Assembly: GCA_024734495.1 (NCBI GenBank)
Contig: JALMQS010000841.1
Span: forward strand, 853,626-917,625
Direction: 5' to 3'
Source of the DNA: Forficula auricularia
Taxonomy: Eukaryota > Arthropoda > Insecta > Dermaptera > Forficulidae
DNA: 64,000 nucleotides
Position numbers and translations under genes: made by a program. Below the pieces are notes generated by a model. That model saw nothing but the letters and a program-made list of their open reading frames with translations, was not told the origin of the DNA and did not search any database. Shown piece after piece: positions 5,630 to 37,900 of this stretch (its first letter is position 1; each line of letters opens with the position of its first letter).

Positions 5630-5677
5630 AAACTATACAGTTTCGGTCACCACTGGTTGACCATCCTCAGTAGTTCC
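5630..5677 (-). ncRNA. Hammerhead-ribozyme-like motif (HH-a)
   Basis: Minus strand: CTGAGGA box at 5670-5664, one unpaired T, helix II GGTCA/TGACC, GAAA at 5644-5641, a very short helix III, a predicted GUA cleavage triplet, and helix I AACTA/TAGTT (5675-5671 with 5635-5631). Both helices pair perfectly. The extra base after the box departs from the textbook core. Confidence 0.5.
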
Positions 5678-5774
5678 AAAATTGAAATGAAACATTTTAT
5701 TTACATTTTTTTCTTTTTATAGAGAATTATATAACACAATAAAATATACAATAGTTTGAAATCATACATACATC

Positions 5775-6370
5775 TCATTCAATTATATCTCAACAAAAAC
5801 ACTTGTGTAAAAAAAGGCCAAGTTCGATTAATAAAATCCGTTTGCCAAAAAAAGTAGTGAGATCTAATGTGCTGCCAAGTTCAACATCATCAATTTATTA
5901 AATGAGTCGAGAATATATTAGTAACTTCAATTAAAACGCATGTTTTTCATTTCACATGTCCCTCTATATTTTTTATTGATTTCACATTTTTAGTTGAAAT
6001 TATTTTCCTAAAACTTGGCTTTTACGCATTAAATTATTATTATTATTGTTTGATAGGGCCTCCACCACTCCCCTCTTATTAAGATCCCATGATATGGTAA
6101 CTAGTAATTCGTGACATACATAATAATGCGTAAAAGCCAAGTTTTATGAAAATAATTTCAACTAAAAATGTGAAATCAATAAAAAATATAGATGGACATG
6201 TGAAATGAAAAACATGCGTTTTAATTGAAGTTACTAATATATTCTCGACTCATTTAATAAATTGATGATGTTGAACTTGGCAGCACATTAGATCTCACTA
6301 CTTTTTTTGGCAAACGGATTTTATTAATCGAACTTGGCCTTTTTTTTACACAAGTGTTTTTGTTGAGATT
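5775..6370. repeat. Long palindrome
   Basis: About 5800-6055 and 6082-6365 are near-perfect inverted copies around a spacer at about 6060-6110. For example, AAGGCCAAGTTCGATTAATA near 5813 returns as its complement near 6340. It is a hairpin-type non-autonomous element; no gene inside. Confidence 0.75.
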
Positions 6371-6689
6371 TCACTTCTTTTTGTAAGCTGGATTTATACT
6401 ATAAATTTAACCCCTTCATTTCGGGCCCAGAAGAAGGAAAAGTTTCGATTTTTCAATTTCGTCCTTTATTAATGTGTCAAGCTTTACCAGTATGCCAAAT
6501 TTCAGCATTCTAGGTTCATTGAATTTTTAGTTTATGTTAATTAAGCCTATAATTTTCAACCCTTCATTTTAGGTCCTGAAGAAGGGAAAGTTTCTATTTT
6601 TGGATTTTTCCCATTAATTGTACCCCAAACTCTACCTGCCTGCCAAATTTCAGCATTCTAGGGTTAGCGGAAGTACTCTAGAATTTTGA

Positions 6690-6735
6690 TGAGTGAGTGA
6701 GTGAGTGAGTCAGTCAGTCAGTGAGTGAGTGAGTG
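6690..6735. repeat. GAGT/CAGT tetranucleotide microsatellite
   Basis: About 11 tandem tetranucleotides (GAGT, then CAGT, then GAGT). Confidence 0.9.
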
Positions 6736-7097
6736 ACGAAAAAGCCTATCTTTGGCTTCTTGTAACTTGGATGGTATAAACAGTAGAAATATGAAATTTT
6801 GTAATTTAGTTAAGCTTATGGACCAGTATTCTGGGAAAAAATTTCAGCCATGTAGAGGTTTCCATTACGAAGTTACAGAGGCGTCAAAATGGCCTGAGTT
6901 GTTTCCTATAAAGGGTAGTCTGGCAGTGCACACATCCCCGCTCGAATCGAACTTGGCTGGGGCACTGCCCCCCGTGCCCCCAGATTTGTGACAAAAACAA
7001 CCCTTCAATTTAATAAGAAAATTTAAATCAAGTCACTTAAGTTCTGGAAGAATTTTTAATAAATAAATAATTTCATAATAATTAATAATTTAATAGA

Positions 7098-7200
7098 GGG
7101 GTCGGTAGTGCAATCGGGTAAATCACCAACTTTTCTAATCCGATTAGGAGAACATCAACCTAGACTTCATCAGTTCGATCTCAGCAAGAAGCAAAGTGAA
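7098..7200 (+). ncRNA. tRNA-like head with pol III boxes (possible SINE head)
   Basis: Box A-like TAGTGCAATCGG at 7106-7117 and box B-like AGTTCGATCTC at 7172-7182, about 65 bases apart as in a tRNA. It lies directly 5' of a LINE endonuclease start, so it could be a SINE or a chimeric 5' end. No cloverleaf can be drawn with confidence. Confidence 0.35.
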
Positions 7201-7555
7201 TTTATTTGAAAAATAATAAATAACCGGCCCCTCGGCTCCAGAAACTGACAATCTTTGGTTCTACAAAACCTCGCGCATGCGCAGGACAAAATTTCGTAAC
7301 AAGCAACCATGAATCGTGAGAGGCAAAAACAACATTACCCCAGGTGGTAACCAATCCACCCACCCTCGAGTGGCAACCGGGCATTCAGATTCTGGGGGAT
7401 CCGGACCATCACGAAGTCAAGGAAGAAACAATGGAAGAATAACACCAAAAATCCATACATACCTGGGCACCTTTAACATCAATACACTCATCCGGCCAGG
7501 AAAAATTACACGTTCCGGAAAAAGATAGAGGCGTGGAAGGTCCAACCAGAAAGAA
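7200..7555 (+). mobile_element. LINE 5' fragment: start of an AP-endonuclease domain
   Basis: Plus-strand frame with KIHTYLGTFNINTLIRPGKI (7448-7510 area), the usual first strand of LINE APE endonucleases (GTFNVNTL...RPGK), followed after a frame break by KIEAWK. It stops abruptly near 7555, so only the 5' edge was kept. Confidence 0.6.
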
Positions 7556-8099
7556 ACATCAAGCTTTGCGTGATCCCAAGGGTCCAAACGCAACAAATAA
7601 TAATAATAATTTAATAATTTTTTGACACTGTTCTGAGACAATCCAGAGTGTATGAGTGTATCGCAAGTCTCCTGGATGAATTCCAGTTCCAATTTCTTTA
7701 TTTTGGCCTGTTCCAGTTTCTTCATAGGTTTTACATTTTCTGTTTTTTTTTTTTTTTTTTTTTTTAACATATTTTACAACACAATAAAATGAAGCTTGTG
7801 AGGGTGTATTCCTATCAGGAAAACGCTCGGTATCCATTTCAATGGCAGCCCCATAACACTTCTTCCACTATCACCGCATAAATTAAGACGCATTTTAATA
7901 CTGTCTTTAACAAAAAAATGCTCCATTTTTATTATGGTAATACAATATTACTATCTACTGGATTGAGACGAGAAATAAACTTTTTAAACTCAATAATTTT
8001 AACTAGTTTTATTAAGTAGAAAATAATCTCCTAAATTTGAGTATAACGAAGTTTTAATATCATTATAAACACTTATTTTCATTGTTGTGACTTTTCGAT
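7556..8099. other. Interior of family F element, no gene
   Basis: Contains the block TGACACTGTTCTGAGACAAT (7621) and CTGGATGAATTCCAGTTCCA (7671), which recurs near 36715 and 44115 inside other family F copies, plus a poly-T run at 7744-7765. Open frames here are by-products of repeats. Confidence 0.55.
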
Positions 8100-9288
8100 T
8101 TAATGATTATTTATTTAATAATTAATTATTTGATCATTATTATTTGATAATTAAATTAAATAATTGTTAAAAATAATTATTAAGATTTTTTGAGATCTAA
8201 TTGATTCATATATTTTGTTTATTTGATGTCGTATAAAAAATAGTTCTTATGAAAGTTGTTCAGTTTTTTTTTGTAGATTAAGTAGACGTAGAGTAAAATA
8301 CAGGTTTCTATTTAAAAAACATAACTTGACCTTAAAATACCATTGAAAGCTTATTCTACGTCGACAAACAATAGCGTAGTTTAGTTTCCCCCTTGATATA
8401 AATAAACTTTTATTTGAAACTTTTTTCATATAATGCACTGTTTTTGAGTTATAAGACAGTCTTATATCAGTTTAAAAAAACTAAAAAACACGCTAATCCA
8501 TTAAAAAGTACATATTAATGTAATAAACAAAACGCGTGGGCCGGAGAAGCATGTACTTTTAATTAATTTCGACCAAGTGCCCCAGGCCAAAATTTTTAAA
8601 ATATATACAATAATAATATTATTTTTACTTTACCATACAGGGTATGGTCAAGTATTGTAATCGTGCATGAAAAAAGTGTTTTTTCCTTCTTTTTCTAAAT
8701 ATCTCAAAAACGGCTGAAACTATTTTGATGAAAAAATTGAGCGAAACCATGGCATTTCGCTCTACAAAAAAGCTCTTATAAGTAGAACATCGAAAAAATA
8801 ATATTTTTCGAGATAATAATTGTTTTGTCAAAATGTCTGATAGTCTGGTTGTTAGTTAGTCTGTGCGTAAGCTACCAAATTTTGTGGATGAGCTAGCTCA
8901 AAAACTAGTGTGAATATCGAAACCAAATTTCACACGTAGTTTTGGTCCATTGAGATTAAGAGCTGATTAGATTTTGGTGCATATCAACCCATAATTAAGG
9001 GGGGTCGAGGGGGGGGGGGTTAAAAATTAAAAATCTAGGCCATTTGAGCAAACTCAACCAAATTTTTTATTCATAATCAGTGGAACCCCAGAAGTCTAAA
9101 AATGCAAAAACTAACCACCCAAAAATGGGGGGTCATAAGGGTCAAAAAATGAAGGTACCGCGACATTTCAGCCCCCGACAAAATATCCCAAGGACAAAAT
9201 ATCCCCCGACATAATATCTTCTGACAAAATATAACCCAGTATAAGGGAGAATACAAAAGAGATTAAGTGAGAAGCTTATAATTATATA

Positions 9289-10197
9289 GGGTGTTTTTTT
9301 TAGAGGTATAGAACTTCGAATTAATATAAAACACAAGAAAATCGTTTTAATGTCCATCAATTTGGCTTTATTGGAAGGATAATTTTATGCCATTAATGTT
9401 TAAATATGATTTCGGCATGTGGCCGCCGCGGCTGGCTCGAATAAATCCAATTCTACAGGTCCAATTTTCAACCACTTTTTCGAGCATATGGGGCCGTATG
9501 TTGGCAATAACGCCACGAATGTTGGCTTCCAAGTCCCCTAACGTTTCTGGTTTGTTGGCGTAGACGAGCGACTTCACATATCCCCAAAGAAAATAATCCA
9601 ATGGTGTCAAATCACACGATCTTGGTGGCCAATTGACAGGTCCATTCCGCGAAATTATGCGCTCATCGAATGTGACGTGCGCTGTGTGGCATGTAGCGCC
9701 GTCTTGTTGGAACCACAACTCATGCACATTCATGCCATCCAATTCGGGAACAAAATAGTCGGTTATCATGGCTTTATACGGGTCTCCATTAACGGTAACT
9801 GACTCTCCAGCATTATCTTCGGAAGAAGTATGGCCCAATGACTCCACCAGCCCATAGAGCACACCAAACAGTCCAGCTTTTGTGGATGTAATGGCGTCTC
9901 GATGGTCTCATGTGGATTATTTTCAACTCCAAATGCGGCAATTTTGCTTGTTGATCGTAGCCATTCAACCAAAAATGAGCCTCATCACTGAACATAAGTT
10001 CTGCTCGAAAAAGTGGTTGAAAATTGGACCTGTAGAATTGATTTATTCTGAGCCAGCCGCGGCGGCCTACATGCCCGAAATCATATTTAAACATTAATGG
10101 CATAAAATTATCCTTCCAATAAAGCCAAATTGATGGACATTAAAACGATTTTCTTGTGTTTTATTTCAATTCGAAGTTCTATAATTAAAAAACACCC
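9289..10197 (-). mobile_element. Tc1/mariner-type element with 194-bp TIRs, N-terminal half replaced by an inverted copy of its own 3' end
   Basis: Begins GGGTGTTTTTTTT and ends AAAAAACACCC. The two ends are inverted copies over about 9289-9483 and 10004-10197. Because the left end includes the transposase 3' coding region, its last ~38 codons are repeated, inverted, where the N-terminal half should be. Only the catalytic half survives, so it is a dead, hairpin-forming derivative. Confidence 0.8.
9368..10005 (-). pseudogene. Tc1/mariner-like transposase, catalytic half
   Basis: Minus strand. Two adjoining frames give the DDE core of an insect Tc/mariner (IS630 superfamily) transposase: FSDEAHFWLNGY (first D, about 9990-9960), a frame break, TVWCALWAGGVIGPYFF, then ELWFQQDGATCHTAH (second D), NGPVNWPPRSCDLTPLDYFL (third acidic position) and LWGYVKSLVYANKPETL, with stop at 9368. 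The DNA-binding N-terminus is absent. At least two frame breaks (about 9850 and 9930). Confidence 0.8.
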
Positions 10198-10199
10198 AT

Positions 10200-13410: not shown

Positions 13411-13625
13411 TCCTGTGAATATCCCGAAGAATGTTCTAACAATCTTCTACAGATATCCTGTGAATATCCCGAAGAATGTTCTAACAATCTTCTACAGATA
13501 TCCTCTGAATATCCCGAAGAATGTTCTAACAATCTTCTACAGATATCCTGTGAATATCCCGAAGAATGTTCTAACAATCTTCTACAGATATCCTGTGAAT
13601 ATCCCGAAGAATTTTCTAACAATAC
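13411..13625 (+). repeat. 45-bp tandem repeat, about five copies
   Basis: Unit starts (TCCTGTGAATATCCCGAAGA) at 13411, 13456, 13501, 13546 and 13591, exactly 45 bases apart. As 45 is a multiple of three, both strands stay open, producing meaningless repeated peptides. The last copy is cut by the palindrome at 13625; a further copy of the motif resumes after it, near 13940. Confidence 0.95.
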
Positions 13626-13711
13626 AACTGGATGTTGATGAAGGCAGTCCAAGGTGGTTGTAAAAAATAAGACTATATCAATTTTACTATTTTACATTTA
13701 TTCGATAACCG

Positions 13712-13750
13712 ACGTTTCGGAGATTTACTCTCTCCTTCTTCAGGGTAACG
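13712..13750 (-). ncRNA. Hammerhead-ribozyme-like motif (HH-b)
   Basis: Minus strand: CTGAAGA at 13743-13737, one unpaired A, helix II GGAGA/TCTCC, GAAAC, GTC cleavage triplet. Helix I is weak (GTTACC with GGTTAT, about 3 bp). Confidence 0.4.
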
Positions 13751-13785
13751 AAAAGTCAATGAAAGTATATAATTGATATACTTTT

Positions 13786-13832
13786 CGTTATCCTGAAGAA
13801 GGAGAGAGTAAATCTCCGAAACGTCGGTTATC
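13786..13832 (+). ncRNA. Hammerhead-ribozyme-like motif (HH-c)
   Basis: Plus strand, the other arm of the same palindrome: CTGAAGA at 13793-13799, helix II GGAGA/TCTCC, GAAA at 13818-13821, then CGTC and GGTTATCG. Helix I is imperfect. Confidence 0.4.
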
Positions 13833-13925
13833 GAATAAATGTAAAATAGTAAAACTGATAAAGTCTTATTTTTTTACAACCACCTTGGACTGTCTTCATC
13901 AACATCCAATTGTATATTTATACCA

Positions 13926-14594
13926 GTCCGTCTCCTAAAGTTCTAACAATCTTCTACAGATATCCTCGGAATGTATATAACCAGGGATGATCGAAATTTG
14001 AATATTTGTGTAGGACATTAAATTCCCTTTCCCGGAATATTCCTTCTTGGAATATTGGGAAAAGAATATTCTCAGAAGATTAACGCCCATACAAATATTC
14101 TGTGAATCTCCTGGGGATAACTGGAATATATATGTCCTTTAAATAACTTCTTGGAAACTTCTGGGGATATTGTGTGTTACCTGGGTTTGTACTTGCTTCT
14201 TTAAAAAAAAAATATTTGTATTTTTTTGACAAAATAAGCTAATTTAAAAACATATTTTGATTGTATTTTATTTTTTTATTTAATTTGTTAATCAATTATG
14301 TCGCATCTTAATTTATCTAATATTTGCCTATTATAGACATTATTAATTAGCTATTATAGTATTAATGTCTACAATAGCCAAAGATTAATTCAATTAAGAT
14401 GCGACATAATTGATTAACAAATTAAATAAAAAACACCATCAAAATATGTTTTTAAATTAGCTAATTTTGTCAAATAAATACAAATATTTTTTTTTCCTAA
14501 AGAAGCAAGTACAAAGTGCTCTACCATTTTGAAATCTTGACTAAATGGGCCAATTTTTTAAATAACTTACCATGCTTGTTTATTAGACTTTTTT
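13926..14594. other. Interior of foldback 2 with inverted AT-rich arms, no gene
   Basis: 13940-14190 is CCTTAGAATATT-like sequence ending GTTACCTGGG, related to the CCCAGG MITEs. 14190-14510 is an inverted repeat around the centre near 14345 (TGTCGCATCTTAATT at 14299 and its complement near 14395). Confidence 0.6.
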
Positions 14595-15095: not shown

Positions 15096-15471
15096 TTTAG
15101 CAACGATCCGTTGCAGTTTATTTTACATTAAAAATGATTCAAAGTTAGATGATTAAAATTTTTTAAAACATAATTCTGACAAAAATATTTTTTTCTCCAA
15201 AAGTATAATACTTAGGGTTTTATTTTGAATTCTGGTCAATAGCAGGATTATTCAGGATTGCGTAACAAAAATTAGAATAATAAAATATCTAAATTTTTAG
15301 CCACAGTATCTTGATATTTAGAGCAGTGTGGCGATTTTCACCATTTTCAAAAAATGCCTATAACTCGAAAACTATGAGACTTTTATTAAAAAAAATTGGT
15401 TTACCTTCTGGACCGTCGTAAATTGCCTTTATCCCCTGTTCACGGTTTATCGTTGCGATACTGGACACCCT

Positions 15472-15567
15472 CCCAGGTAACACACAATATCCTAAGAATA
15501 TTCTAAGAAGATTTAAATGTCCTTAGAATATCCTTAGAATATTCTGAGGATATTGTGGTTACCTGGG
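15472..15567. mobile_element. 96-bp MITE, CCCAGGTAACACA family
   Basis: Perfect ends CCCAGG...CCTGGG with inner AATATTCT/AGAATATT palindromes. It sits within the last bases of foldback 2, splitting GGACACCCT and CTG, so the duplicated target is CT (2 bp). Other copies: 51151-51246 and the longer 52541-52847. Confidence 0.85.
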
Positions 15568-15659: not shown

Positions 15660-15760
15660 TCTTAGGAAATTGGATACATTAATTGAATTGAGAGTTTTAT
15701 ATTGAATAAAACGAACGTTTCGTCACTATATTGGCGACTTCTTCAGGGACTTCCTCCACT
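15660..15760 (-). ncRNA. Penelope-type fragment with a hammerhead-like motif (HH-d)
   Basis: Minus strand: CTGAAGA at 15746-15740, one unpaired A, helix II GTCGC/GTGAC (one G-U), GAAAC (15721-15718 and on), GTT. Helix I does not pair, so this copy is probably decayed. Confidence 0.35.
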
Positions 15761-16669: not shown

Positions 16670-18785
16670 ATTTTTAGCTATTATAATTTTGAAGTTACTG
16701 CTAGATAAAATACTGCTGTATCTTAGTGTAAATAAGTTATGAGACTCCAAAATTATAATAGCTAAAAATCTGTAAAAATTCCGAAGGATAGCTACTATTA
16801 TAAGGATAAAGCCTACAGAGTGTTAAATTTTTTGAACCATTACTTTGGCCGGAATAAAAATTAAGAGTCCTATAACTTATTAACACTATGATATAGCAGT
16901 ATTTTATCTAGCTGTAACTCCAAAATTGTAATAGCTAAAAATCTGTCAAAATTCTGAACGATAGCTATTATAATAAGGTTAAAGCCTACAGAGTGTTAAA
17001 TTTTTTGAACCATTACTTTGGCCGGAATAAAAATTAAGAGTCCTATAACTTATTAACACTAAGATATACCAGTAATTTATCTAGCTGTAACTCCAAAATT
17101 ATAATAGCTAAAAATTTGTAAAAATTCTGAAGGATAGCTATTATTATAAGGATAAAGATTACAGAGTGTTAAATTTTTTGAACCATTACTTTGGCCGGAA
17201 TAAAAATTAAGAGTCCTATAACTTATTAACACTAAGATATACCAGTAATTTATCTAGCTGTAACTCCAAAATTATAATAGCTAAAAATTTGTAAAAATTC
17301 TGAAGGATAGCTATTATTATAAGGATAAAGATTACAGAGTGTTAAATTTTTTTGAACCATTACTTTGGCCGGAATAAAAATTAAGAGTCCTATAACTTAT
17401 TAACACTATGATATAGCAGTATTTTATCTAGCTGTAACTCCAAAATTGTAATAGCTAAAAATCTGTCAAAATTCTGAACGATAGCTATTATAATAAGGTT
17501 AAAGCCTACAGAGTGTTAAATTTTTTGAACCATTACTTTGGCCGGAATAAAAATTAAGAGTCCTATAACTTATTAACACTAAGATATACCAGTAATTTAT
17601 CTAGCTGTAACTCCAAAATTATAATAGCTAAAAATTTGTAAAAATTCTGAAGGATAGCTATTATTATAAGGATAAAGATTACAGAGTGTTAAATTTTTTG
17701 AACCATTACTTTGGCCGGAATAAAAATTAAGAGTCCTATAACTTATTAACACTAAGATATACCAGTAATTTATCTAGCTGTAACTCCAAAATTATAATAG
17801 CTAAAAATTTGTAAAAATTCTGAAGGATAGCTATTATTATAAGGATAAAGATTACAGAGTGTTAAATTTTTTGAACCATTACTTTGGCCGGAATAAAAAT
17901 TAAGAGTCCTATAACTTATTAACACTAAGATATACCAGTAATTTATCTAGCTGTAACTCCAAAATTGTAATAGCTAAAAATCTGTCAAAATTCTGAAGAA
18001 TAGCTACTATTATAAAGATAAAGTATACAGAGTGTTAAATTTTTGAAACATTACTTTGGCCGGAATAAAAATTAAGAGTGCTTATAACTTATTAACACTA
18101 AGATATAGCATTAATTTATCTAGCTGTAACTCCAAAATTGTAATAGCTAAAAATCTGTCAAAATTCTGAACGATAGCTATTATAATAAGGATAAAGCCTA
18201 CAGAGTGTTAAATTTTTTGAACCATTACTTTGACCGGAATAAAAATTAAGAGTCCTATAACCTTATTAACACTAAGATATACCAGTAATTTATCTAGCTG
18301 TAACTCCAAAATTATAATAGCTAAAAATTTGTAAAAATTCTGAAGGATAGCTATTATTATAAGGATAAAGCCTACAGAGTGTTAAATCTTTTGAACCATT
18401 ACTTTGGCCGGAATAAAAATTAAGAGTCTTATAACTTATTAACACTAGGATATACCAGTAATTTATCTAGCTGTAACTCCAAAATTGTAATAGCTAAAAA
18501 TCTGTCAAAATTCTGAACGATAGCTATTATAATAAGGATAAAGCCTACAGAGTGTTAAATTTTTTGAACCATTACTTTGACCGGAATAAAAATTAAGAGT
18601 CCTATAACTTATTAACACTAAGATATACCAGTAATTTATCTAGCTGTAACTCCAAAATTATAATAGCTAAAAATTTGTAAAAATTCTGAAGGATAGCTAT
18701 TATTATAAGGATAAACTGTACAGAATTTCAAATTTTTTGAATCATCACTTTGGCCAGAATAAAATATTGATCGTTCAATGTCAAA
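16670..18785 (+). repeat. 173-bp satellite array, 12 units
   Basis: TTGGCCGG (or a one-base variant) occurs at 16845, 17018, 17191, 17365, 17538, 17711, 17884, 18056, 18230, 18404, 18577 and 18750, i.e. every 172-174 bases. Units share CCATTACTTTGGCCGGAATA and TTATCTAGCTGTAACTCC. Two alternating unit types (GAACGATAGC and GAAGGATAGC) suggest higher-order duplication. No open frame persists. Confidence 0.97.
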
Positions 18786-19500: not shown

Positions 19501-21599
19501 TTATGTGTGATTTTGCTAAAAATTTCAAAAACTTAATTTTTGAATTATTTAATTTTTCGGTGACCACGGAGAAAATCCACTTGGAAATCTTCATTTATCT
19601 TAATTGACTATTTGTTAATTAAATTAGAGGTTTACTTAGAGAAAGTGGTGCTGAATTTCAAATGATTCACTGTGAAACTACACACCCTTTACTTGATTAA
19701 TTAATTAAATTAATTATTGGCAAGTGGGTGTGTCAATAAAAATGTATAATTACATTTTTTCAATTTTCTTTTATTAATTAATTAGTTTTTTTTTTAATTT
19801 TAAAACCCATTGATAATTTATTACAAATATTAATATAAATTGAAATTAGAAAAATTTAATTAATTGAAAGAGACCGGATTGGAATAATTATCGGAAAAGA
19901 GGTTTTTTTATTTAATTAGTTTTTTCCTCTTATTATAAACAAGGACTAAAAAGATGATCAAGGATGGTGGAGAAGTAATCTCCGGAGTCGAAGCTCAAAT
20001 ACAATGTATACATTAATTAATGCAAAGTAATTGGTTTAATTAATTAATTCAAGTCTAAATTATTAATATCATTTTTAACTAATGCAAAATAATATCGAGC
20101 AATGTTTTATGAATAAAATTTGGTTTTTAACACATATTCTTTAAAAACGAATTTTAAATAATACGTGTTTCAAACACTTGTTAAAAATATAATTGTTTTA
20201 AACTTGGCAACGCTGCGCTATGTTCTATAATCTATAGGGCAAAGAATTTTTCCATTTTTGTCTAGTTTTTTTTGTATTTATTAAGAAAATGTTTTATTTC
20301 TAATTATTATTTAAAATAATATATATTTAAAAATAATAAAATTGAATTATTTCTAGAACTTTATTATAATATCCAAAAAAAAAAAACTTATATAGGATTA
20401 TTTTTAATAATAAATTATTTTAAAATAAAATTTATAATTTTTTCCAATTAAACTATTTAAATTTTAATATTAAATTTTTTTTTAAAATATAACATTTTGC
20501 AATTATTTTAAGACATTTTCCTAGATAATTGTATAAATATAGAGAAAAAAAAATAGTATTTCCAGATATTTATTTGAATATTTTGTATTTCATTTAAATG
20601 AAAAAATAATAATAATAATTAGATTCAATAATTATTTAACAATATAAATATAAATAAAATTAAAATTACTAATTAATTATTTAATCAACAATGTAAATAA
20701 ACAAATATTTATTAATTTAAAAATTCAATAATTGAAATTTTATAAATTAAATTATTTTATATCTTGATGTAGTGATATTTTTACACTAAGTACTTGTTTA
20801 GCTATTAGCTAGCTTGCTAGCTATGTAAAGAGATTTTCAATATACACTCGAATTGACCCCATGAGAATTATAAATAAAAAGACTGATAATGAATTAAGTA
20901 AATATAAAATTATTTGAAATATTAATCACTTCTTATATATGATTAATTTTAATAATAAATTATTTAAAAATAAAAAATATAATTTTTTTCCAATTAAACT
21001 ATGTATTTAAATTTTATTAATAAAAAAGTTTAATAAAAAAATATATAACATTTTGAAATTATTTTAAGATCATCTTTCTGAAAATAAATAAATAATTTGA
21101 CAATTATTTTGACTGTGAACAATTTAATATAATAGAAAGCTGAAACTTGGCATTACTACATGTTCAATAGAAAATACCCCTAATTAATTAAATTTTCTAA
21201 TTATAATAAAATTTATTTCATTAAATATTTGCAATGAACCATTAGGGGGTTTTAAAATCAAAAAAATAAATAAAACAATTAATTAATAAATTGAAATTGA
21301 AAAAAAATATATTATTAATTAATGACACACTCGCTCTGTGAATAATTAATTTAATTAAGAAAAAAAACAATGAAATTTAAATTAGCCGAAAGATGAAACC
21401 CTGACAGATCGATTTATCGACCCAAAAAACCTCTAATCCAGTGATTTTTATCGAAATCGTTAGAGGCATTTTCAAGAAACCGATTCTAGGTATATATTAT
21501 TCACAAAGAGAAACAAAGAGATTGTCTTCTGCTTGATGCAAATAAACATATACACATATATATCAAGATGATATATCTGTATATATATATATTATTTAT
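19501..21599. other. AT-rich region, no gene; one dispersed repeat
   Basis: 19870-20050 (AATAATTATCGGAAAAGAGG ... GAAGTAATCTCCGGAGTCGA) recurs at 62090-62130 and 63715-63870 and goes with the Helitron-like family. 20800-20825 has repeated TAGCTAG. The rest is AT-rich sequence with tandem TTAATTAA-type words. No coding evidence. Confidence 0.6.
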
Positions 21600-22212
21600 T
21601 TGTTTGAGACTATAGTTTCGAAGACTTGGTCTTCATCATCAGTCTTTCTTCAATTATAAATGTTTTTCATGGAGTCAATATCATATGGATACTGAAAACT
21701 TGGTGTTCCTTCGTCACTGGAAAGCTAGCAACTAACAAAGACATTCTCTCCGGGCTCACACTCAAATATAACCATATGTTTCCCTTTCTTTTTTCTCTCC
21801 TTAGAAAGGAGGAATTTTTTCCTTTTATCTTTTGTTAGCAAACATCTTAAGTAGATTACTATTGGATAATTCAATTTGATTGTTTAAACAGAGTTCTGAA
21901 TTTCTATTGAATGACTTCAAAATTTCTAAAGATTCGATTGCGCTAATCAATTTTGGGTCCCTTTCTCCTTTTATTAATCTAATACCTTCTGGGAAGGAGT
22001 GATTGTTTGAATTTAAATGTTCTGCAAAAGAATTTTCGTACTTTTATTTTTATAATCTCTTATGTGTTCATTTAGTCGAATTTTCAGATTTCTCTCGGTC
22101 TTCCCTACATATATTGCTTCGCAATCTTTGCATTTCAAACTATAAACCCCTTCTTTTTCTATATTTGGTAATTTGTCTTTTTTATTTGAACCTAAATCTT
22201 TTCCTAGAGTAG
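21600..22212 (-). mobile_element. Penelope-like element, 3' end with GIY-YIG endonuclease domain
   Basis: Minus strand from about 22165: GVYSLKCKDCEAIYVGKTER, then NLKIRLNEHIRDYKNKS, a frame break, then AEHLNSNNHSFPEGIRLIKG and ...ISAIESLEILKSFN. This is the GIY-YIG nuclease of Penelope-like retroelements with its Cys motif (CKDC) and YVGKTER...RLNEH. A one-base frame break and truncation make it dead. Downstream of the coding end lies a hammerhead-like motif (21610-21650), as expected for these elements. Confidence 0.8.
21610..21650 (-). ncRNA. Hammerhead-ribozyme-like motif (HH-e) beside the GIY-YIG domain
   Basis: Minus strand: canonical CTGATGA at 21642-21636, one unpaired T, helix II GAAGAC/GTCTTC with a 3-base loop, GAAAC, then TATAGTCTC. 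Helix I pairs only after skipping one base (AGA with TCT). Confidence 0.45.
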
Positions 22213-23819: not shown

Positions 23820-24391
23820 AATACCTACAATTATTATGTATATATGTGCATACCGAAATTAATCAAATATAAAACATTTCCATATATATAATATTTATTA
23901 AAAAAATAGTATTTCAAGATTTTTATATTATGTAGTATATTTTGTAGTTAAAAAAAATCAAAAATTAAAATATTTTTTCTACTTATAAAGGATTATTAAT
24001 TAATTACGTTATCAAATTTGAATCCTCAATATATTTAGCGTATATGGCAAATATTTATTTATTTATTTTAAATACTAAATTAATTATTATAAGACATTTT
24101 CCTAGATAATTATAGATATAAAAAAAAATGGTATTTCAAAATTTTTATATTAGGAATATTTTGTAATTAATTTAAATAAAAAAATAAATAGATATATATA
24201 ATAATATAATAATATATATATAATAAATAAATAAAATTAATTGTCACGCAAATGTTTTTTAATTTTTTTTTACCTATCCTTTCCTATTGTGTTGTATCAT
24301 CTTTTCGAACTTTGGCTAATTTTAATTAAAACAAGTATTTTTGTATTAAATTAAATTATAGAATATAAAAAAATATATTGTATATTATAGA

Positions 24392-24475
24392 CAAAAGGAC
24401 CTAGCGGGATTCGAACCTGGAACATCTACATAACGGACGCATTGTTCTAGTTTAGCAATGCGCCCGTCACGCTGA
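24392..24475 (-). tRNA. Inverted tRNA-like partner on the minus strand
   Basis: Reading minus, a second box B GGTTCGAATCC (24417-24407) is followed by CGCTAGGTCC and TTTT (24396-24393). The flanks (AATATATTGTATATTATAG and its complement after 24510) are also inverted, so the whole 24370-24530 block is a palindrome with two convergent tRNA-like halves. T-stem pairing is damaged on this strand. Confidence 0.4.
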
Positions 24476-24507
24476 GGTCCCGGGTTCGAATCCCGCTAGG
24501 TCCTTTT
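24435..24507 (+). tRNA. tRNA-like sequence (possibly Asp-derived, anticodon GTC), degenerate
   Basis: Sixty-nine bases ending GGTTCGAATCC (box B, 24483-24493) and CTAGGTCC, followed directly by TTTT, a pol III terminator. Acceptor GGAC pairs with GTCC. A loop CCGTCAC would place GTC as anticodon, but stems contain mismatches and U33 is C. Probably a pseudo-tRNA. Confidence 0.4.
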
Positions 24508-25207
24508 CTCTATAATATTATACAATATATTTTTTTTTATTCTAAAAATTTAATTTAATTTATAAATTGTCTTTGGATGAGACCTCGTGATAATTACGTA
24601 ACTACAAGGCTTATAAAAAAATAATTTTCATGTTTCATATGATATAATATAGTTTAATTAATTTTTTCTTAATTTTTACAAATATGTAGCAAATTAATAA
24701 TAGTAATAATATAATTTTTTTATTTTATAATTCACTTTTTGCTAGCATTGCCAATAGATATAAATAAAATCAAAATATTTTTTTTCGACTTATAAGGGAT
24801 TATTCATTAATTACGTCATCAAATTTGAATACTAAATAAATTTAGCGTATATGGCAAATATTTATTTATTTTAAATACTAAATTATTATAAGACATCTTA
24901 CTAGATAATTATAGATATAAAAAAAAAAAATGTTATTTCAAAAATTTTTATATTATAAATATTTTGTAATTAATTTGAATAAAAAAATAGATATATATAA
25001 AATAAATAAATTAATTGTCACGCATATTTTTTAATTTTTATTCAACTCTCCTTCCCTATTGTGATGTATCATCTTTTCGAACTTTTGCTAATTTTAATTA
25101 AAACAACATTACGCTTAGTATTTTTGTATTAAATTAAATTATAGAAAATAAAAAAAATATATATTGTATATTATAGACAAAAGAACCTAGCGGGATTCGA
25201 ACCTGGA

Positions 25208-25502: not shown

Positions 25503-25596
25503 CTTAAGCAATTACAAAGATAATTTAGCATTAAGTGGATATTGATGAGGCAGTCCAAAAAAAGAAGAAGATAATTTACACTATCTTTTTATTCGT

Positions 25597-25640
25597 AAAA
25601 CCGACGTTTCGGAGGCTATTCCCTCCTTCTTCAGGGTTTT
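25597..25640 (-). ncRNA. Hammerhead-ribozyme-like motif (HH-f)
   Basis: Minus strand: CTGAAGA at 25634-25628, one unpaired A, helix II GGAGG/CCTCC, GAAACGTC, helix I AAAACC/GGTTTT (perfect). Confidence 0.55.
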
Positions 25641-26262
25641 GAAAAGTCAGTGAAGGAAATCCAATGCGGCATTCCCTCTGTCTCCTCTTTCAGTGGCAGT
25701 AACAATAATATCTTGTATTTCATTCTCAGCAGAATTATAATGTAATAATCATTATTACATTATATAATGTATTATACCATTATTACATTATCATTATTAC
25801 ATTATATAATGTAATAATGATTATTACATTATATAATCGTAATAATGATTATTACATTATATAATGCAATAATGATTATTACATTATATAATGTAATAAT
25901 GATATAATACATTATATAATGTAATAATGATTATTACATTATATAATGTAATAATGATATAATACATTATATAATGTAATAATGATTAGGTATTACATTA
26001 TATAATGCAATAATGATTATTACATTATATAATGTAATAATGATATAATACATTATATAATGCAATAATGATTATTACATTATATAATGTAATAATGATT
26101 ATTATATTATATAATGTAATAATGGTATAATACATTATATAATGTAATAATGATTATTACATTATAATTCTGCTGAGAATGAAATACAAGATATTATTGT
26201 TGCTGCCACTGAAAGAGGAGACAGAGGGGAATGCCGCATTGGATTTCCTTCACTGACTTTTC

Positions 26263-26306
26263 AAAACCCTGAAGAAGGAGGGAATAGCCTCCGAAACGTC
26301 GGTTTT
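26263..26306 (+). ncRNA. Hammerhead-ribozyme-like motif (HH-g)
   Basis: Plus strand: helix I AAAACC (26263-26268) with GGTTTT (26301-26306), CTGAAGA at 26269-26275, one unpaired A, helix II GGAGG/CCTCC, GAAAC at 26293-26297. The predicted GUC cleavage is after 26300. Confidence 0.55.
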
Positions 26307-26595
26307 ACGAATAAAAAGATACTGTAAATTATCTTCTTCTTTTTTTGGACTGCCTCATCAATATCCACTTAATTCAATTATCAGTCCGTCTCCAAAAATT
26401 ACTCCAATTTTAATAATTTAGCATTTAAAATTGTCTGATTTGGAGGTAAGTTAAATGCTTTCAATGTCGTAAGTTGAGGAAAGACATTATTTTTGATTTT
26501 ACTTATGGAACGTGGTGTAGGTTTTAGGTGAAACATGATGTTAATTAATAGAGTAAAGGGTGTGTAGTTTCAGTATTGTGTGTAGTTTCAGTATT

Positions 26596-26636
26596 AACTC
26601 CTGATGATGGACTAATAATCCGAAATATATTGAGTT
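26596..26636 (+). ncRNA. Hammerhead-ribozyme-like motif (HH-h), canonical CUGAUGA box
   Basis: Plus strand: helix I AACTC (26596-26600) with GAGTT (26632-26636), CTGATGA at 26601-26607, one unpaired T, helix II GGA/TCC, GAAA at 26622-26625, then TATAT and T. Predicted cleavage after 26631. Lies in a short repeat flanked by GTGTGTAGTTTC copies, outside the palindrome. Confidence 0.55.
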
Positions 26637-26759
26637 TGTATAAACCTCTTTGAGTTTTATTTCATTCACTGTGAAACTACACACCCTTTACTCTATTAAT
26701 TATTTTTGATGTTTTACAGTTGAATTAGCTCCTATCCTATTATTTTGATCCTAAACAGG

Positions 26760-30205: not shown

Positions 30206-30214
30206 GTGCCTTTT

Positions 30215-30730: not shown

Positions 30731-31560
30731 GTGTATTCTCAAGCAAACAATAGGGACCGTGCGTCCTGACTTTAGCGTCAACTGGCGACCAAAATATAAA
30801 CATAATAGGGGTATTTATTAAATGTTTATATTATATGTGATTTTTTTCTTTCCTATTATATTATTATTATTATTTCCAGGATAAATAAATAAAAACAAAA
30901 CAATTTATGTATTTCCCACTATTATTTGAATAAATAAACACAAGAGAGCACTACCTTCGGTAATAGTGCTGCCTCTCATGTTTAACACACGATCCCTATA
31001 CTTACAAGTACAATACTGTATTTTCTGAGGAAATACTTTTTTAACCATATTCCCGATAACCCGGCATTTTCACAAACTGGGCCACCCTTCGGTTAACATT
31101 AGGCCGAGTTTTCGGTATTCTACTGGTAATTATTTTATTTTTAGACTAAGTTATATTCAAAAACAAAATCTACCTGCTCTCATTTGGACTCGCTTTACAA
31201 ACACGACTAAAGTAGGATAATATGAGAGACTCGTATTAAGATCGATTTCAATGAATTTTTAAGATAATAGGATCATGAAAATATATAACATATATAAGGT
31301 AGCCGTTTTTCAGATAGAAAATTCTTATTTTGAATAAATTAACACTCTCTTAGGCTGTTAATATTCTTCAAAAAGAAATTAAAAAAAAAAAACAACATAT
31401 AAATGATTCAGTAGTTTGCGAAGTTCGTGAAGCGATCGGGTAGTTTGTTGCTGAAGTTTGAATTACGTTCAACTGTGATTCAACTATAACTTTTAAGGAG
31501 GTGGTGGTTCTAGGTGAAACATTTTAATATAATATTTCATTTTTCGTGTCCATGATTAAT
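30731..31560. other. Mixed repeat debris, no gene
   Basis: 30745-30790 (AGGGACCGTGCGTCCTGACT) resembles sequence near 59780. 31385-31520 (GCGAAGTTCGTGAAGCGATC) recurs at 32370-32440. No coding frame. Confidence 0.4.
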
Positions 31561-31625
31561 AATTAAAGGAATCGTAGGAGTTGGACATGAGTTTAAATTA
31601 AATACAAAGTTTTTTATTTAAATAC

Positions 31626-31668
31626 GAAAACATTTCGTTGCTAGTTTGCAACTTCTTCAGTGGCTGAA
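31626..31668 (-). ncRNA. Hammerhead-ribozyme-like motif (HH-i)
   Basis: Minus strand: CTGAAGA at 31660-31654, one unpaired A, helix II GTTGC/GCAAC, GAAAT. Helix I is decayed in this arm. Confidence 0.4.
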
Positions 31669-31997
31669 ATAGCGAAACAAAGCCGTTAGACATCTTTTTA
31701 TTAATCAATTATTTCATTTTTACAAAAGTACAATTGTAAGTAAGGTTAGTTTTTCTCACCTCATTTATTAAACTTATTTGTCTGGAGTTTTAACTAAAAG
31801 AAAAACCATTTTCAAACAGTATCCTTACAAATCACTCAATTACTGTTTGAAAATGGTTTTTCTTTTAGTTAAAACTCCAGACAAATAAGTTTAATAAATG
31901 AGGTGAGAAAAACTAACCTTACTTACAATTGTACTTTTGTAAAAATGAAATAATTGATTAATAAAAAGATGTCTAACGGCTTTGTTTCGCTATTTCA

Positions 31998-32038
31998 GCC
32001 ACCGAAGAAGTTGCAAACTAGCAACGAAACGTTTGGCG
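31998..32038 (+). ncRNA. Hammerhead-ribozyme-like motif (HH-j)
   Basis: Plus strand: helix I GCCA/TGGC, box CCGAAGA at 32002-32008 (U4 changed to C), one unpaired A, helix II GTTGC/GCAAC, GAAAC at 32026-32030, GTT. The helices are intact but one core base is mutated. Confidence 0.4.
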
Positions 32039-32596
32039 TATTTAAATAAAAAACTTTGTATTTAATTTAAACTCATGTCCAACTCCCTACGATTCCTTTA
32101 ATTTTAATATAATAATAAAAAAAAACCACAATTTTTGTTATTATATGTGATTCAGCTAATTATAATTACTCGTATCAGGTGGTAATGTTTCATTAAATAA
32201 TGAAAAGATATCACTCAAAATACCCTAGATTAATTTATTTAAAAATATATATATATTTTATTTATAATAAGATTGAACATGTTGTTTTTAATGTAAAAAA
32301 ATCCTTTATTTGAAAAAATTAACAGTGTCTTAGGCAGCAGCTAATATTCTGCAAAAAGTAATACACGCTGAAGTTCGTGAAGCGATCCAGTGGATTGTTG
32401 GCGAAGTTCGTGAGACTATCAACTGTGATTCATGGTAATTATAATTACTCGTATGCCGGGGAAACCTTCATTGAAGAATGAAAGCCTATCACTCAGAATA
32501 CCCTGATATTAATTAATTAATTCTAATTAGGTTGCCATGGCAACTTGTCAACAACCATGTATTTATTATTATTGAGATAGAAAATAAACAAACATG

Positions 32597-32636
32597 TTGT
32601 CATTGAAAAAGGGAGAAATTCTCCCGAAACGTTTGA
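32597..32636 (+). ncRNA. Hammerhead-like relic (HH-k)
   Basis: Helix I GTCA/TGAC and helix II GGGAG/CTCCC pair, followed by GAAACGTT, but the first box is TTGAAAA (32603-32609), so catalysis is unlikely. Confidence 0.3.
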
Positions 32637-32689
32637 CTTTGAATAAACGTGTTTTTTGGATTGTTTTTTATGAAAGATTTGTATTTTTT

Positions 32690-33650: not shown

Positions 33651-33892
33651 TTTTTGGGTGAAATGTAGTGTCCAGGCCATGACGTCAGATGTGAAATCTA
33701 TTCTTCCCAAACAAGCCCTCTATGAGGTTTGGTTAGGATATATGGCAATTTCCTGTCTAGTTATTTATTGATCTGTTTTTTAAATTATTTATTTTTACTT
33801 AATTTAACAACAATTTCTTCAAACCCAGTGACATATTTTAACTATTTGTCTTTTATTTTTTTCATTTATTTATTTATTTTTCCCAGTTGTAT

Positions 33893-34170
33893 TTATTTAT
33901 TTATTTGTTTTTATTATTTGAACGACATGCGGTATTCCTTTTTGTTTTTACTTTATTTATTATTTTATTGTTGGCCCGAGCATACTAAGGTTTTACACAG
34001 TTCTGCTGTTGCCACACTATGATCCACTCAACTTATTTGTTTTTATTATTTGGATGACATGCGGTTTTCCTTTTTGTTTTTACTTTATTTATTATTATCT
34101 TCTTGGCCGGAGCATACTAAGGTTTCACACCGTTCTGCTGTGGCCACACCCTGACCCACTCAACAGGATC
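33893..34170 (+). repeat. Tandem duplication, two ~135-bp units
   Basis: TTTGTTTTTATTATTTG, GACATGCGGT, TTCCTTTTTGTTTTTACTTT, GAGCATACTAAGGTTT, CACAC(A/C)GTTCTGCTG and CCCACTCAAC occur in the same order at about 33898 and 34031. No gene recognised. Confidence 0.8.
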
Positions 34171-34670
34171 CTGATTGGGAGGATTGGAGGGCTATAAGGG
34201 GAGATGTGAAGGCCCTTAAAAAAAATATTGTTGTAATGACTCATCTTGTGTGTATGCCATACGCTAAATAATAATAATTACTCGTATATCGGACAAAGTT
34301 TCAAAAAAAATGAAAAACTATCACTCATAAGACCCTGTTAATTTATCCAAAAAAAGTGAGGCTTATCTTAATATATTTTTTATGACACAATAAGGCTATC
34401 TTATATATTTTATAAAAATTCTTCCATGTTTCTATTATCTTAAAACAAAAAATTGGTTCTTATAGGTTACCTTGAATTATGCACATAGTTTGTGACTTCT
34501 TTTGGTATTCTAATTAATAAAAAAAAACAATCTCAAAAATGTGATTTAGTAGTTAAGAATAACCCTTAAGTACAGAAAAAAAAAATAAAAATAAAAAATA
34601 AACATATAGCCATTTCTAGGAGTTTTTAAAAAGACAATTAGAAAATAAAATTGAGAACAAGAATTAATCG

Positions 34671-34941
34671 TTATTTACGGCCGCTGATTTTTGAAAGAAT
34701 AAGAGCGACGCCGGATGTGATAATTGAAAGCATCAAAATTGGCGCCGAGACATGATGGTGAATTAGCCGGAATCGATCCAGTATAAATTTGGCGCCCGGA
34801 TGGACGGGGGCGGGCTTCGCGTGACCCTCTGGCTCCAAAATACGCAAGTTTTTCAAATAATCAATCAATGGAGAATGATCTTTCGAGAATATTGGAAAAT
34901 ATTCACTAACATGTTCACGGGTCCACTGTTCATGGGTGAAT
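34671..34941 (-). CDS. LMF2-like: LMF last exon
   Basis: Acceptor TTTTTTTTCAG. Encodes FTHEQWTREHVSEYFPIFSK, then HVSAPILMLSIITSGVALIL (a last membrane segment) and KISGRK followed by TAA at 34671. No canonical AATAAA is obvious just downstream. Confidence 0.94.
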
Positions 34942-37900
34942 CTGAAAAAAAATTATATATTTATTTATACACTGAAAAAACGATATATTAATAGTTAAGA
35001 TGCCGCTATTTGAACCAAGCGCCAATAGGTTAATTATGAAGATATTGTTATTTGAGTAAAATAGAGGAATAGTTAAATTTAATAGTTGGGTATTTAAATG
35101 GAATAATACGTAATTACGACAAGAAATTATATAAACTTGAATATTTTTTATTTATTTATACACTGAAAAAACGATATATTTGATATGAATAGATGGTGAA
35201 GTTAATTATGGTGATATCGATATCTGTTCAATATGAATAAATGATTTACATATTTTAAGTATTCTCATATTTTTTGAGAATCTCTAGATATAGTAATAGT
35301 TAAGATGCAGCTATTCGAGTCTATTTTATTTTTTTAGATCGGTGAAAATGTCCAAAAAAAACCTTGAAAAGTCCCCTTTTTTGCGTACTCTACTCATAAG
35401 ATTATACCGGGTGAGTTTTTACTTTATCCAATTCAAAGCATGGGTAAAGTATTGTAATCGCTCTCGGGGCAAGCGTGGCTTCCAAAGGGTCCTCAGGTAA
35501 AGACTACGGAACCCATGGACTCAATTAAAGTCACAAATTGTAGTATTCAATTAGGTTGAATATTAGCACGTGACGGTTTTGCCAAAAATTACATGGGGTC
35601 TCGTCGAGAGGCCAAAAAGTGCGATTTTTTCATTTAGTGCGTGCGGATGGATGGATGTATGTATGTATGTATGGATGGATGGATGGATGGATGTTATCGC
35701 TTTTTTGGCCCACGATTTTTTCCACACCGTTGCACCGATTGAAATGAAATTGAAAACCTACCATTAGTTTAACAAAATGAAGCGCTGATTAGTTTTTGGT
35801 ACATATCGGCCCACAAACATTAGTACTTTATTTCAGTACTTTTTTAGTTTTTTCTAAATATCTTTAAAATGACTTAACCAATTTTGATGAAATTTAATAT
35901 CCTAATTAAGTACCTTGGGGACCACAAAAAAGATTAAATAAAGTTTTTAGTAAAATTATATTTTAAAAGTACTTTACTCTAGAGTAAGATGGTACTTTTT
36001 TTAATTTTTTAAATTCTTTAAAATTTATTCATTTGAAAGTTTTAATATAGCTCATTTAGCCTTGCTTAAGTAAGAATGGATAGGCTTCTCTCTGTGAAAT
36101 GCTAAAAATTTGAGAGGAATTTTTATGAGTAACCATAGCAACTGCGTTGTTTTCTTATCCGTTACCTTTGCTGAAGACAGAGAAATCGATTTTAAACCAA
36201 AAATAGCTATTGATTCTCATCTAGTACTTGAGGAATAATCATTCTATATTGGATTTTTGACGTTTCGGTTTTTATTAGTAACCATTGCTGAAGACATAGA
36301 GAAATCGACTTTAAACCAAAAATAGCGATTGATTCTCATCTAGTACTTGAGGAATAATCATTCTATATTAGATTTTTGACGTTTCGGTTTTATTTTATCT
36401 TGAGACAGTCTTATAACTCAAAAAAAGTGGATTATATGAAAAAAAATTTCAAATAAGAGTTTATTTATATCAAGAATTTCTTAATTAATAAATATTTGTT
36501 TATTTACATTGTTGATTAAATAATTAATTAGTAATTTTAATTTGTTTATATTTATATTGTTAAATAATCACATATCATAATAAAAAATATTATATCAATT
36601 ATTAATTTTATCTCAAAAAAAATTATAATTATTTTTAACAATCATTCAAACTTAATTTATAAAATAATAATTATCAAATATTTAATTATTGAATAAATAA
36701 TTTAATAATTTTGCGGCACTGTTCTGAGATATTCAAGAGTGTTATCGGAAGTTTTCTGGATGAATTCCAGTTCCAATTTCGTTATTTTAGTCTTTAAAGT
36801 TCTTAAAATTATTGGATAAAAATACTTGGTAGGTTTCACATTAAGATATAAAAAAATAAAACGAATTTATTTTTGGAGAATCTTAAATCTCGATATATAT
36901 ATTTCGGGTGACTAACCCATCTTCAGGAGAAACAGTTACTTTCTGTTTCTCCTGAAGATAGGTTAGTCATGAAATATATATATCGAGATTTAAGATTCTC
37001 CAAAAATAAATTCGTTTTATTTTTTATATCTTAATGTGAAACCTACCAAGTATTTTTATCCAATAATTTAAAAAATGTTTCACCAAGTACCAACACCAAA
37101 TTCCTTAAAAACTATTAAAAAACTTTTAAAGTTCTTCGTAGCCTTTACATTTCTTGTTTTTTTTTTTTTAAATAGATTTACAATACGATAAGATGAAGCA
37201 TGTGAGGGTGTATTCCTATCAGGAAAACGCTCGGCATTAATTTCAATGGCAGCCCCATAACACTTCTTCCACATTTAATGCATAAATTAAGATCATTTTA
37301 ATTCTGTCTTCAACAAAAAATGCTCCATTTTTATTATGGTAATACAATAATATAACTATCTACTGGATTGACACGAGAAATTAACTTTTGTAAAGTCAAG
37401 AATTTTAACTAGTTCTTTTAAGTAGAAAATAATCTCTTAAATCTGTGTATAATGAAGTTTTAAGATCATTATAAACACTTATTTCATTGTTGTGACTTTT
37501 CAATTTAATAATTATTTATTTAATAATTAATTATTTAATGATTATTATTTGATAATTAAGTTTAATAATTGTTAAAAATAATTATTAGGGGTTTTGAGAT
37601 CTAATTGATTCATGTATTTTGTTTATTTGATGTCGTATAAAAAAATAGTTCTTATGAAAGTTGTTCAGTTATTTTTGTAAATTAAGTACACGTATAGAAA
37701 AATATAGGATTCCATTTAAAAAACAGAATTTGACATTGAAATACCATTGAAAGCTTTTTTTATTTGATGTCATATAAAAAAATAATTCTAATAAAAGTTA
37801 TTCACTTTTTTTTGTAGATTCAGAATATGTACAGAAACATATAGGTTTCTATTTAAAAAACATAACTTGACCTCGAAATACACTTGAAAGCTTGTTCTTC

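Follow-up and report, generated by a model that had tools for sequence, protein, structure and literature searches.

A 64,000-nucleotide stretch of the Forficula auricularia genome (assembly GCA_024734495.1, contig JALMQS010000841.1, positions 853,626 to 917,625 of the forward strand; the window hereafter) carries a series of short motifs that resemble hammerhead ribozymes, and the question that this locus raises is to which element the motifs belong and whether the RNA made from them cuts itself. We regard them as very probably the pseudo-long-terminal-repeat (pLTR) hammerheads of Penelope-like retroelements (PLEs), present in coding PLEs and in far more numerous short insertions of a similar 3′ region; this confidence covers the identity of the motifs and the anatomy of the insertions. 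On the second part of the question, the sequences lead us to lean towards intact copies being able to cleave.

A sequence-only reading of the window had listed 11 loci with a CTGANGA box or close variant, one extra base, a hairpin and GAAA. All 11 carry these features, and they represent eight insertions, since three pairs are the two arms of one insertion. The box is intact in 10 of the 11, the exception being 32002(+) with CCGAAGA. A strict scan, which demanded a perfect core, a helix II of at least 4 pairs and GAAA, returned nine matches with one base between core and helix II, none without such a base and two with two bases; it leaves out two listed loci, 26601(+) with a 3-pair helix II and 32002(+) with its core change. 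The corresponding means over 300 dinucleotide shuffles were 0.10, 0.08 and 0.11, with a maximum of 2 for the two-base form, and the two-base matches at 44915(+) and 46706(-), the latter inside a reverse-transcriptase frame, are taken for chance. The elements that define a hammerhead (CUGANGA core, helix II, GAA(A) and a non-G base at position 17 before helix I) are all found.

Chance similarity in AT-rich DNA might account for such motifs, as the core has six fixed letters and lax scans yield many matches. With one core mismatch allowed, 14, 7, 10 and 3 matches with 0, 1, 2 and 3 extra bases were obtained in 15 stretches of the genome chosen regardless of the motif (149,123 bases in total; 20 were requested and 5 contigs were too short), counts that look like background. 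The strict scan of the same stretches gave 15 motifs, each with a single extra base, forms with 0, 2 or 3 being absent, and the nine strict matches in the window stand against the 0.10 expected. In the whole genome (1,061,512,967 bases, 1.06 Gb), the pattern CTGANGANGGN{3,15}CCGAAA, which contains one extra base, has 29,217 + 28,812 = 58,029 matches and 10 when read backwards. An origin by chance is vanishingly improbable on these figures, and we count it as refuted.

The same numbers bear on the extra base itself. In the hammerhead consensus, no nucleotide stands between A9 and helix II, and all 11 loci depart from it. The genome pattern without the extra base has 291 + 246 = 537 matches (control 7), as against 58,029 with it, so that the one-base insertion noted by the sequence-only reading holds for every one of the 11 listed loci and of the 15 strict motifs from the unselected stretches, and for the great majority of matches genome-wide. 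Among 100 one-extra-base matches listed, the base is T in 52, A in 46, C in 1 and G in 1, that is, A or T in 98. In 297,725 bases made up of the window and 38 fetched loci, many of them picked for their endonuclease, strict counting gave 49 motifs with one extra base, two with none (both in locus L077) and two with two (both in the window); when 3-pair helices were allowed, the counts became 54 with one, 3 with none, 4 with two, 2 with three and 2 with four. The 100 zero-base matches listed are, by eye, mostly point mutants or one-base deletions of common families, and one string, CTGAAGAGGGTTGCCACGAACCCGAAA, recurs about 11 times among them. Throughout the class in this genome, an A or T inserted between core and helix II is close to fixed.

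We letter the insertions and solitary motifs of the window A to H and give bit scores from a model built on these window motifs themselves. The motifs lie in the left and right arms of insertion A at 13702–13750(-) and 13786–13834(+) (41.1 and 40.8 bits), of insertion B at 25594–25641(-) and 26262–26309(+) (47.9 bits each) and of insertion C at 31621–31667(-), where the 3′ side is decayed, and 31995–32042(+), where the core is CCGAAGA (45.1 and 46.3 bits). The left arm of insertion D holds a motif with helix III ATATATATAT at 36889–36933(-) (33.6 bits). Motif E (26594–26638(+), 36.6 bits) has helix III ATATAT and helix I AACTC/GAGTT; motif F (5628–5677(-), 36.6 bits) has CTGAGGA, an extra T, helix II GGTCA/TGACC, helix III ACTGT and helix I AACTA/TAGTT; motif H (21603–21649(-), 37.3 bits) has CTGATGA, an extra T, helix II GAAGAC/GTCTTC, helix III ACTATAGT and a helix I of 2 pairs; and motif G is solitary and without helix I (15705–15753(-), 44.6 bits). 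Cleavage is predicted after 26300 in the right arm of B and after 26631 in E, and these positions, proposed earlier, fit the sequence. The model adds a decayed twelfth motif that the first list did not contain, at 32596–32642(+) (TTGAAAA, helix II GGGAG/CTCCC, ACGT, helix I GTCA/TGAC; 25.7 bits, E 0.0018), and the partner motif in the right arm of D, with a broken helix II, at 36945–36987(+) (18.1 bits, E 0.074).

Helix III had been described as tiny. It is indeed short; what had been overlooked is that it is self-complementary. The word directly after GAA is ACGT in A, B and C, ATATAT in E, ATATATATAT in D and ACTATAGT in H, while that of F is nearly self-complementary; in the intact window motifs such a word is followed by a non-G base and then by helix I. 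In the window and the 38 fetched loci, a perfect self-complementary word of at least 4 nt follows GAA in 23 of 27 distinct one-extra-base strings, compared with 14% of 3,702 GAAA sites, although some of the 27 look like chance matches, as by eye may one or more of the 23, and strings within one family are related. For strings with a helix II of at least 4 pairs the figure is 20 of 22. A self-complementary segment in place of a hairpin helix III is what characterizes the minimal PLE hammerhead. Such words bar an intramolecular hairpin and allow pairing between two motifs, as expected for hammerheads that act as dimers; the portion of PMC7761336 that deals with PLE hammerheads, citing Lunse et al. 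2017, likewise describes them as lacking helix III and possibly cleaving as dimers.

Helix II covaries. In nine aligned motifs, 97.7% of helix II cells are paired compared with 58.0% after shuffling, and none of 500 shuffles reached this value; the number of pairs changed on both sides is unremarkable (158 of 500 shuffles reach it), and helix II had served in choosing the loci, as helices I and III had not. Genome-wide, the search pattern leaves pairs 3–5 of helix II free, and among the matches listed they are paired in 93 of 100, 58 of 99 and 79 of 95 (shuffled means 67.5, 35.0 and 41.8), or in 43 of 50, 26 of 49 and 36 of 46 over 50 distinct strings.

Helices I and III pair above chance at eight loci when compared with random pairings of window sequence, the better-preserved arm being taken for A and C (Fisher combined p about 3e-9). 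The signal comes from F, B, E, H, the right (+) arm of C and D; A gives p 0.06, and G and the decayed arms contribute nothing. The helix I described earlier is present in several copies and absent or weak in others, with 0 Watson–Crick pairs at 15746(-), 1 at 31660(-), 2 at 21642(-) and 1 and 3 in the pair at 13.7 kb.

The anatomy of the surrounding DNA points to the element that carries the motifs. A, B, C and D are near-perfect inverted repeats in which the motifs face outward, an arrangement absent from the earlier list, as is the 31-bp left arm of E. Insertion A (13614–13950) consists of head-to-head arms at 13622–13756 and 13780–13915, with a 10-bp target duplication TTCTAACAAT at 13614–13623 and 13941–13950 and a tail on the right arm only; it adjoins a 45-bp tandem repeat, in the units of which the empty site can be seen, and a longer, 13-base flank match of A is part of that tandem repeat. 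In insertion B (25520–26425), the inverted arms lie around an AT-rich palindromic array (at 25740–26170, with a 27/55-bp self-complementary unit), the 13-bp duplication ATAATTTAGCATT is at 25520–25532 and 26413–26425, and the tail is on the right arm. Insertion C (31521–32114) has arms at 31555–31821 and 31841–32108, a 14-bp duplication ATTTTAATATAATA at 31521–31534 and 32101–32114 and its tail on the left arm; insertion D (36793–37136) has arms at 36800–36935 and 36943–37075, a 12-bp duplication TTTAAAGTTCTT at 36793–36804 and 37125–37136 and its tail on the right arm. A second family-D insertion at 51029–51668 (the 51-kb copy) is flanked by the 12-bp target duplication AATTTTTCCATA; its left-arm motif is split in helix II by a repeat at 51151–51246, and its right-arm motif lacks the 5′ half. 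Insertion E (26542–26702(+)) is an asymmetric inverted repeat whose 31-bp left arm is identical, in reverse complement, to the 3′ terminus of the right arm.

In A, B, C, D and the 51-kb copy, one arm bears a tail of about 25–50 nt that is absent from the other, so that these five show the PLE arrangement of inverted pLTRs with an optional tail of 30–40 nt and a short target duplication. Of 26 motifs, 17 have an inverted partner upstream; these comprise 8 of the 11 window motifs and 9 of the 15 from the unselected stretches, short simple-sequence matches not being counted. For F, G and H, no partner was located in the window. Candidate target duplications of 14, 11 and 12 bp were found in loci L042, L049 and L077, and neighbours less than 400 bp apart among the listed one-base matches form, by eye, 15 outward pairs, 1 inward and 1 same-strand. 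The direct second copy that a retrozyme would have was not found within 2.5 kb of any of the 13 window positions queried; the partners are inverted. Read from the coordinates, the arms of A–D end about +98 to +122 from the core on the short side and about +125 to +172 on the long side. In a comparison of D with the 51-kb copy, the junction falls at 3 matching bases with a loop of 7 nt, the loop being part of the right-arm template; this fits one copy priming on the other, or self-priming.

Ordinary fold-back DNA transposons (miniature inverted-repeat transposable elements) would likewise leave near-perfect inverted repeats flanked by short target duplications, with the motif in their arms by happenstance, and in other inverted repeats of the window no motif was seen (e.g., 5787–6369, 14186–14515 and 47342–47932). 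We consider this explanation very improbable. The 25–50 nt tail on one arm is a PLE signature, the motifs of both arms face outward, the 3′ ends agree in position with those of a coding PLE family, and the coding PLE of locus L075 has a partial inverted copy as well.

That coding family, H, ties the motif to PLE genes directly. The window motif at 21642(-) lies in a 5′-truncated PLE (21499–22211(-)) comprising an endonuclease C-terminus, the 3′ region and the hammerhead, with 92–94% DNA identity to the tandem PLE in L075; its GIY-YIG fragment (22043–22210(-), E 4.7e-7) is parted from the next piece by a frame change at about 22043. L075 contains two 2,909-bp units that are 99.8% identical, each with an 858-codon stop-to-stop frame whose protein matches RVT_1 (E 1.5e-16) and GIY-YIG (7.6e-6), and each frame is flanked on both sides by a motif identical letter for letter to window motif H, at one motif per unit. 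A single frame with reverse transcriptase and GIY-YIG, and tandem units that give rise to pLTRs, are thus both present in family H. The L075 protein matches the window only at 21828–22210; it has 245 homologues at E ≤ 0.001 among 7,992 scored candidates, and the organisms among the 120 listed include insects, a tick, a fluke, a rotifer and a sea spider. Of the 150 places scored in a GIY-YIG search of the genome, one is in the window, at 22034–22153(-). When 20 of the scored loci were cut out, 14 had a perfect-core one-extra-base motif on the same strand, 307–759 nt downstream of the endonuclease match, and the remaining 6 had no motif or one with a changed core; these loci are not all independent, as some are near-duplicates (L061 and L062 read alike). 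The Penelope-type identity proposed by the sequence-only reading is in this way borne out, directly for 21642(-) and through the anatomy of the insertions for the others.

Seven sources of family H aligned to the tandem unit stop repeatedly at about 135–139 and about 179–185 nt from the core, and the motif lies upstream of both places where insertions end. On this basis, a mechanism can be proposed. The transcript of a tandem PLE would cut itself at each motif and yield unit-length RNA; most likely two motifs would have to pair by way of their self-complementary helix III, and the PLE protein might have to be bound as well. Insertion would start when the GIY-YIG enzyme cuts both target strands; each cut end would then serve as primer for copying the RNA from one of two internal positions, about 100–140 or 125–185 nt downstream of the motif, and the two copies would meet through short complementary stretches to give a mirror-image insertion. 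Cleavage may release unit-length RNA from tandem transcripts, or may act late, together with the protein.

Several observations weigh against the identification or against cleavage. Because the inserted arms hold the whole motif upstream of both priming sites, the template RNA was uncut at the motif, and cleavage therefore seems unneeded for insertion; the same was found in vitro for a PLE of Anolis, whose corresponding motif did not cleave without the PLE protein (PMC11167929). Families A–G are tied to PLEs by their anatomy and not through a PLE gene. In insertion E and locus L054, no target duplication of at least 8 bp was detected, and L043 and L052 have short or ambiguous ones. The autonomous family H has a helix I of just 2 pairs, 41 of 99 listed matches leave pair 4 of helix II open, and the covariation counts are not independent, because families and copies share descent. 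Across 11 aligned copies of family H (shorter and identical ones removed), the mismatch rates of helix II (6.1%) and of GAA with helix III (6.8%) are no better than those of the flanks (5.1% and 9.4%).

The remaining points on this side are computational. A check with hammerhead covariance models had been suggested as a means of confirmation, and it was silent: the Rfam hammerhead models gave no match in the window at the gathering threshold or at E ≤ 10, though motifs this short may score below them, and RF00008 gave no match in the genome, a search in which the controls gave no signal either. Minimum-energy folds of monomers and dimers mostly do not recover the hammerhead; energy folding shows helices I and II together for the right arm of C and, as centroid, for B, and gave little information otherwise, the dimer folding energies being uninformative. 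The many matches to microRNA precursors in the Rfam scans were set aside as artefacts of inverted repeats.

These points raise the alternative that what preserves the motif is its use by the PLE protein as a structured signal for binding or priming, and not the cutting of RNA, the hairpin, GAAA and self-complementary segment placing the enzyme upstream of the sites where reverse transcription starts. The uncut motifs upstream of the priming site in inserted copies and the weak helix I of family H agree with this, as do reports for the Anolis element that mutants with an inactive ribozyme insert normally in vitro and that no RNA-seq read was found with its start or end at the cleavage site (PMC11167929). 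However, the 11 family-H copies keep the core and extra base without change (0 of 88 mismatches) and not the hairpin, helix I pairs in several families, and the Anolis RNA is cleaved in a core-dependent way when the protein is present (PMC11167929). We consider a pure signal function unlikely. In family H the core matters, but its conservation does not equal evidence of cutting.

Somewhat less unlikely, but still not what we favour, is that the window copies are dead fossils of a parent element that was once active, with almost none of them able to cut now. Several copies are decayed: 32002 has CCGAAGA, 31660 is without its 3′ side, the core at 32596 and helix II in the right arm of D are both broken, and the 51-kb copy is interrupted. 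On the other hand, both B motifs, E, the left arm of D, F and H retain core, extra base and helix II, and the 99.8% identity of the tandem PLE units suggests recent activity of family H. Self-cleavage of the intact copies remains the reading towards which we lean.

The extra base allows a further, more doubtful proposal: PLE hammerheads may form a separate structural class with an obligatory unpaired A or T after A9 and a self-complementary helix III, a hinge tuned to dimeric action. Locus L077 (G000:C25:490001-491700) is relevant here. At 383–1207 it holds a palindromic insertion with a 12-bp duplication and an outward-facing pair of CTGAAGAGGGTTGCCACGAACCCGAAA, of the same build and without the extra base; its 3′ side could form a hairpin helix III, which energy folding does not favour, and the Rfam hammerhead models are silent in it. 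It looks as if the extra base and the dimeric helix III had been exchanged together, a suggestion that we hold to be equally speculative. The idea that an extra T makes a start codon (A9-U-G) was dropped, because the first in-frame ATG of the tandem PLE lies 231 nt downstream and the four T-bearing window motifs run, by eye, into stops.

Calling the motifs a variant class, as the sequence-only reading did, is fair as a description. Our literature search found no statement of the extra base for PLE hammerheads, with Cervera and De la Pena 2014 and Lunse et al. 2017 lying outside that search, and we do not claim the feature as unreported.

The window has other features. Two of the 20 window frames scanned match RVT_1 without GIY-YIG (1933–3441(-) and 46543–46872(-)) and probably belong to other retroelements. 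Inverted repeats in which no hammerhead was seen lie at 5787–6369, 14186–14515, 24337–24567, 43979–44327, 47342–47932 and 61451–61618. A small inverted repeat family with CCCAGGTAACAC at its edge occurs at 15471–15567 and 51151–51246, with relatives near 14138 and 52540, and one of its copies sits inside helix II of a hammerhead motif. A tandem repeat with a period of about 173 bp and about eleven copies spans 16744–18764, and a match to the C-terminal domain of Lipase maturation factor at 40245–40544(-) (E 5.4e-15) is probably a host-gene exon.

Viral and prokaryote collections were searched for outside relatives of the motif. A CTGAAGA pattern matched 3 viral and 28 prokaryote stretches, by eye mostly unpaired chance matches, and was set aside; a CTGATGA pattern matched 8 viral stretches. 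IMG/VR contigs L005, L006, L008, L009, L010 and L011 contain a hammerhead-like CCTGATGATGG...CCGAAACGTC with a paired helix II, in which the one extra base is imposed by the search pattern, and a later GTCGCGGG, seen by eye in flanks of the L005, L006, L008, L010 and L011 type, could close helix I. The Rfam hammerhead models were silent at the gathering threshold in ten viral contigs, a set that includes L005, L006, L009, L010 and L011 but not L008, and no PLE protein was confirmed in a search of the viral contigs.

Among known systems, the closest are the minimal type I hammerhead ribozymes of PLEs, reportedly described by Cervera and De la Pena in 2014 and by Lunse, Weinberg and Breaker in 2017. 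Tens of thousands of copies in many families provide natural variation from which one can ask what positions are important, if the extra base is required and if selection acts on cleavage or on binding alone. Published PLE hammerheads, as the relevant portions of PMC6155905, PMC7761336 and PMC7229834 present them, lack a proper helix III, occur in thousands of copies and possibly act as dimers. From these portions, the core, the absence of a proper helix III, the location in PLE pLTRs, the likely dimer action and the thousands of copies per genome, many dispersed in non-coding DNA, are common to both; what hammerheads do in Penelope elements is described as unknown in one review (PMC7761336). 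To this description the present genome adds the A or T between core and helix II in more than 99% of one pattern's matches and a helix III of self-complementary words of several lengths. PLE hammerheads are known already, and the question posed here concerns the class-wide extra base with a self-complementary helix III.

In the plus-strand hammerhead of chrysanthemum chlorotic mottle viroid, an extra A sits between A9 and G10.1. The extra A is given in PMC3705267, where De la Pena and Flores 2001 is cited, and deleting the extra nucleotide raised cleavage according to PMC11014351. That case concerns one viroid, whereas here the A or T is class-wide and found in motifs without a hairpin helix III. 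Metazoan retrozymes, as outlined in the text available from PMC7229834, have type I hammerheads in small non-autonomous repeats, as here, and their authors suggest that PLEs may mobilise them; they are short tandem repeats, unlike the head-to-head inverted arms with minimal hammerheads described above.

For the arrangement of the insertions, the nearest relative is Penelope of Adineta vaga. The corresponding sections of PMC3846280 describe inverted head-to-head pLTRs, solo pLTRs, palindromes at junctions, an optional 31-bp tail on one pLTR and target duplications of 8–10 bp, and the authors inferred self-priming; compared with those sections, gene-less short palindromes are common here, the copy number is far higher and the hammerhead is placed relative to both ends.

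The Poseidon PLE of Anolis, PAc, shares a hammerhead upstream of two starts of reverse transcription whose interval equals the tail, cutting and extension of both target strands, and AT-rich targets (PMC11167929). Its reading frame opens at helix II and reaches the common start after 111–118 nt (PMC11167929); the tandem PLE of the present genome has its first in-frame ATG 231 nt past the core. Insertions that are mirror images with one tailed arm fit as a genomic record of the priming on both strands that was seen in vitro for the Anolis element.

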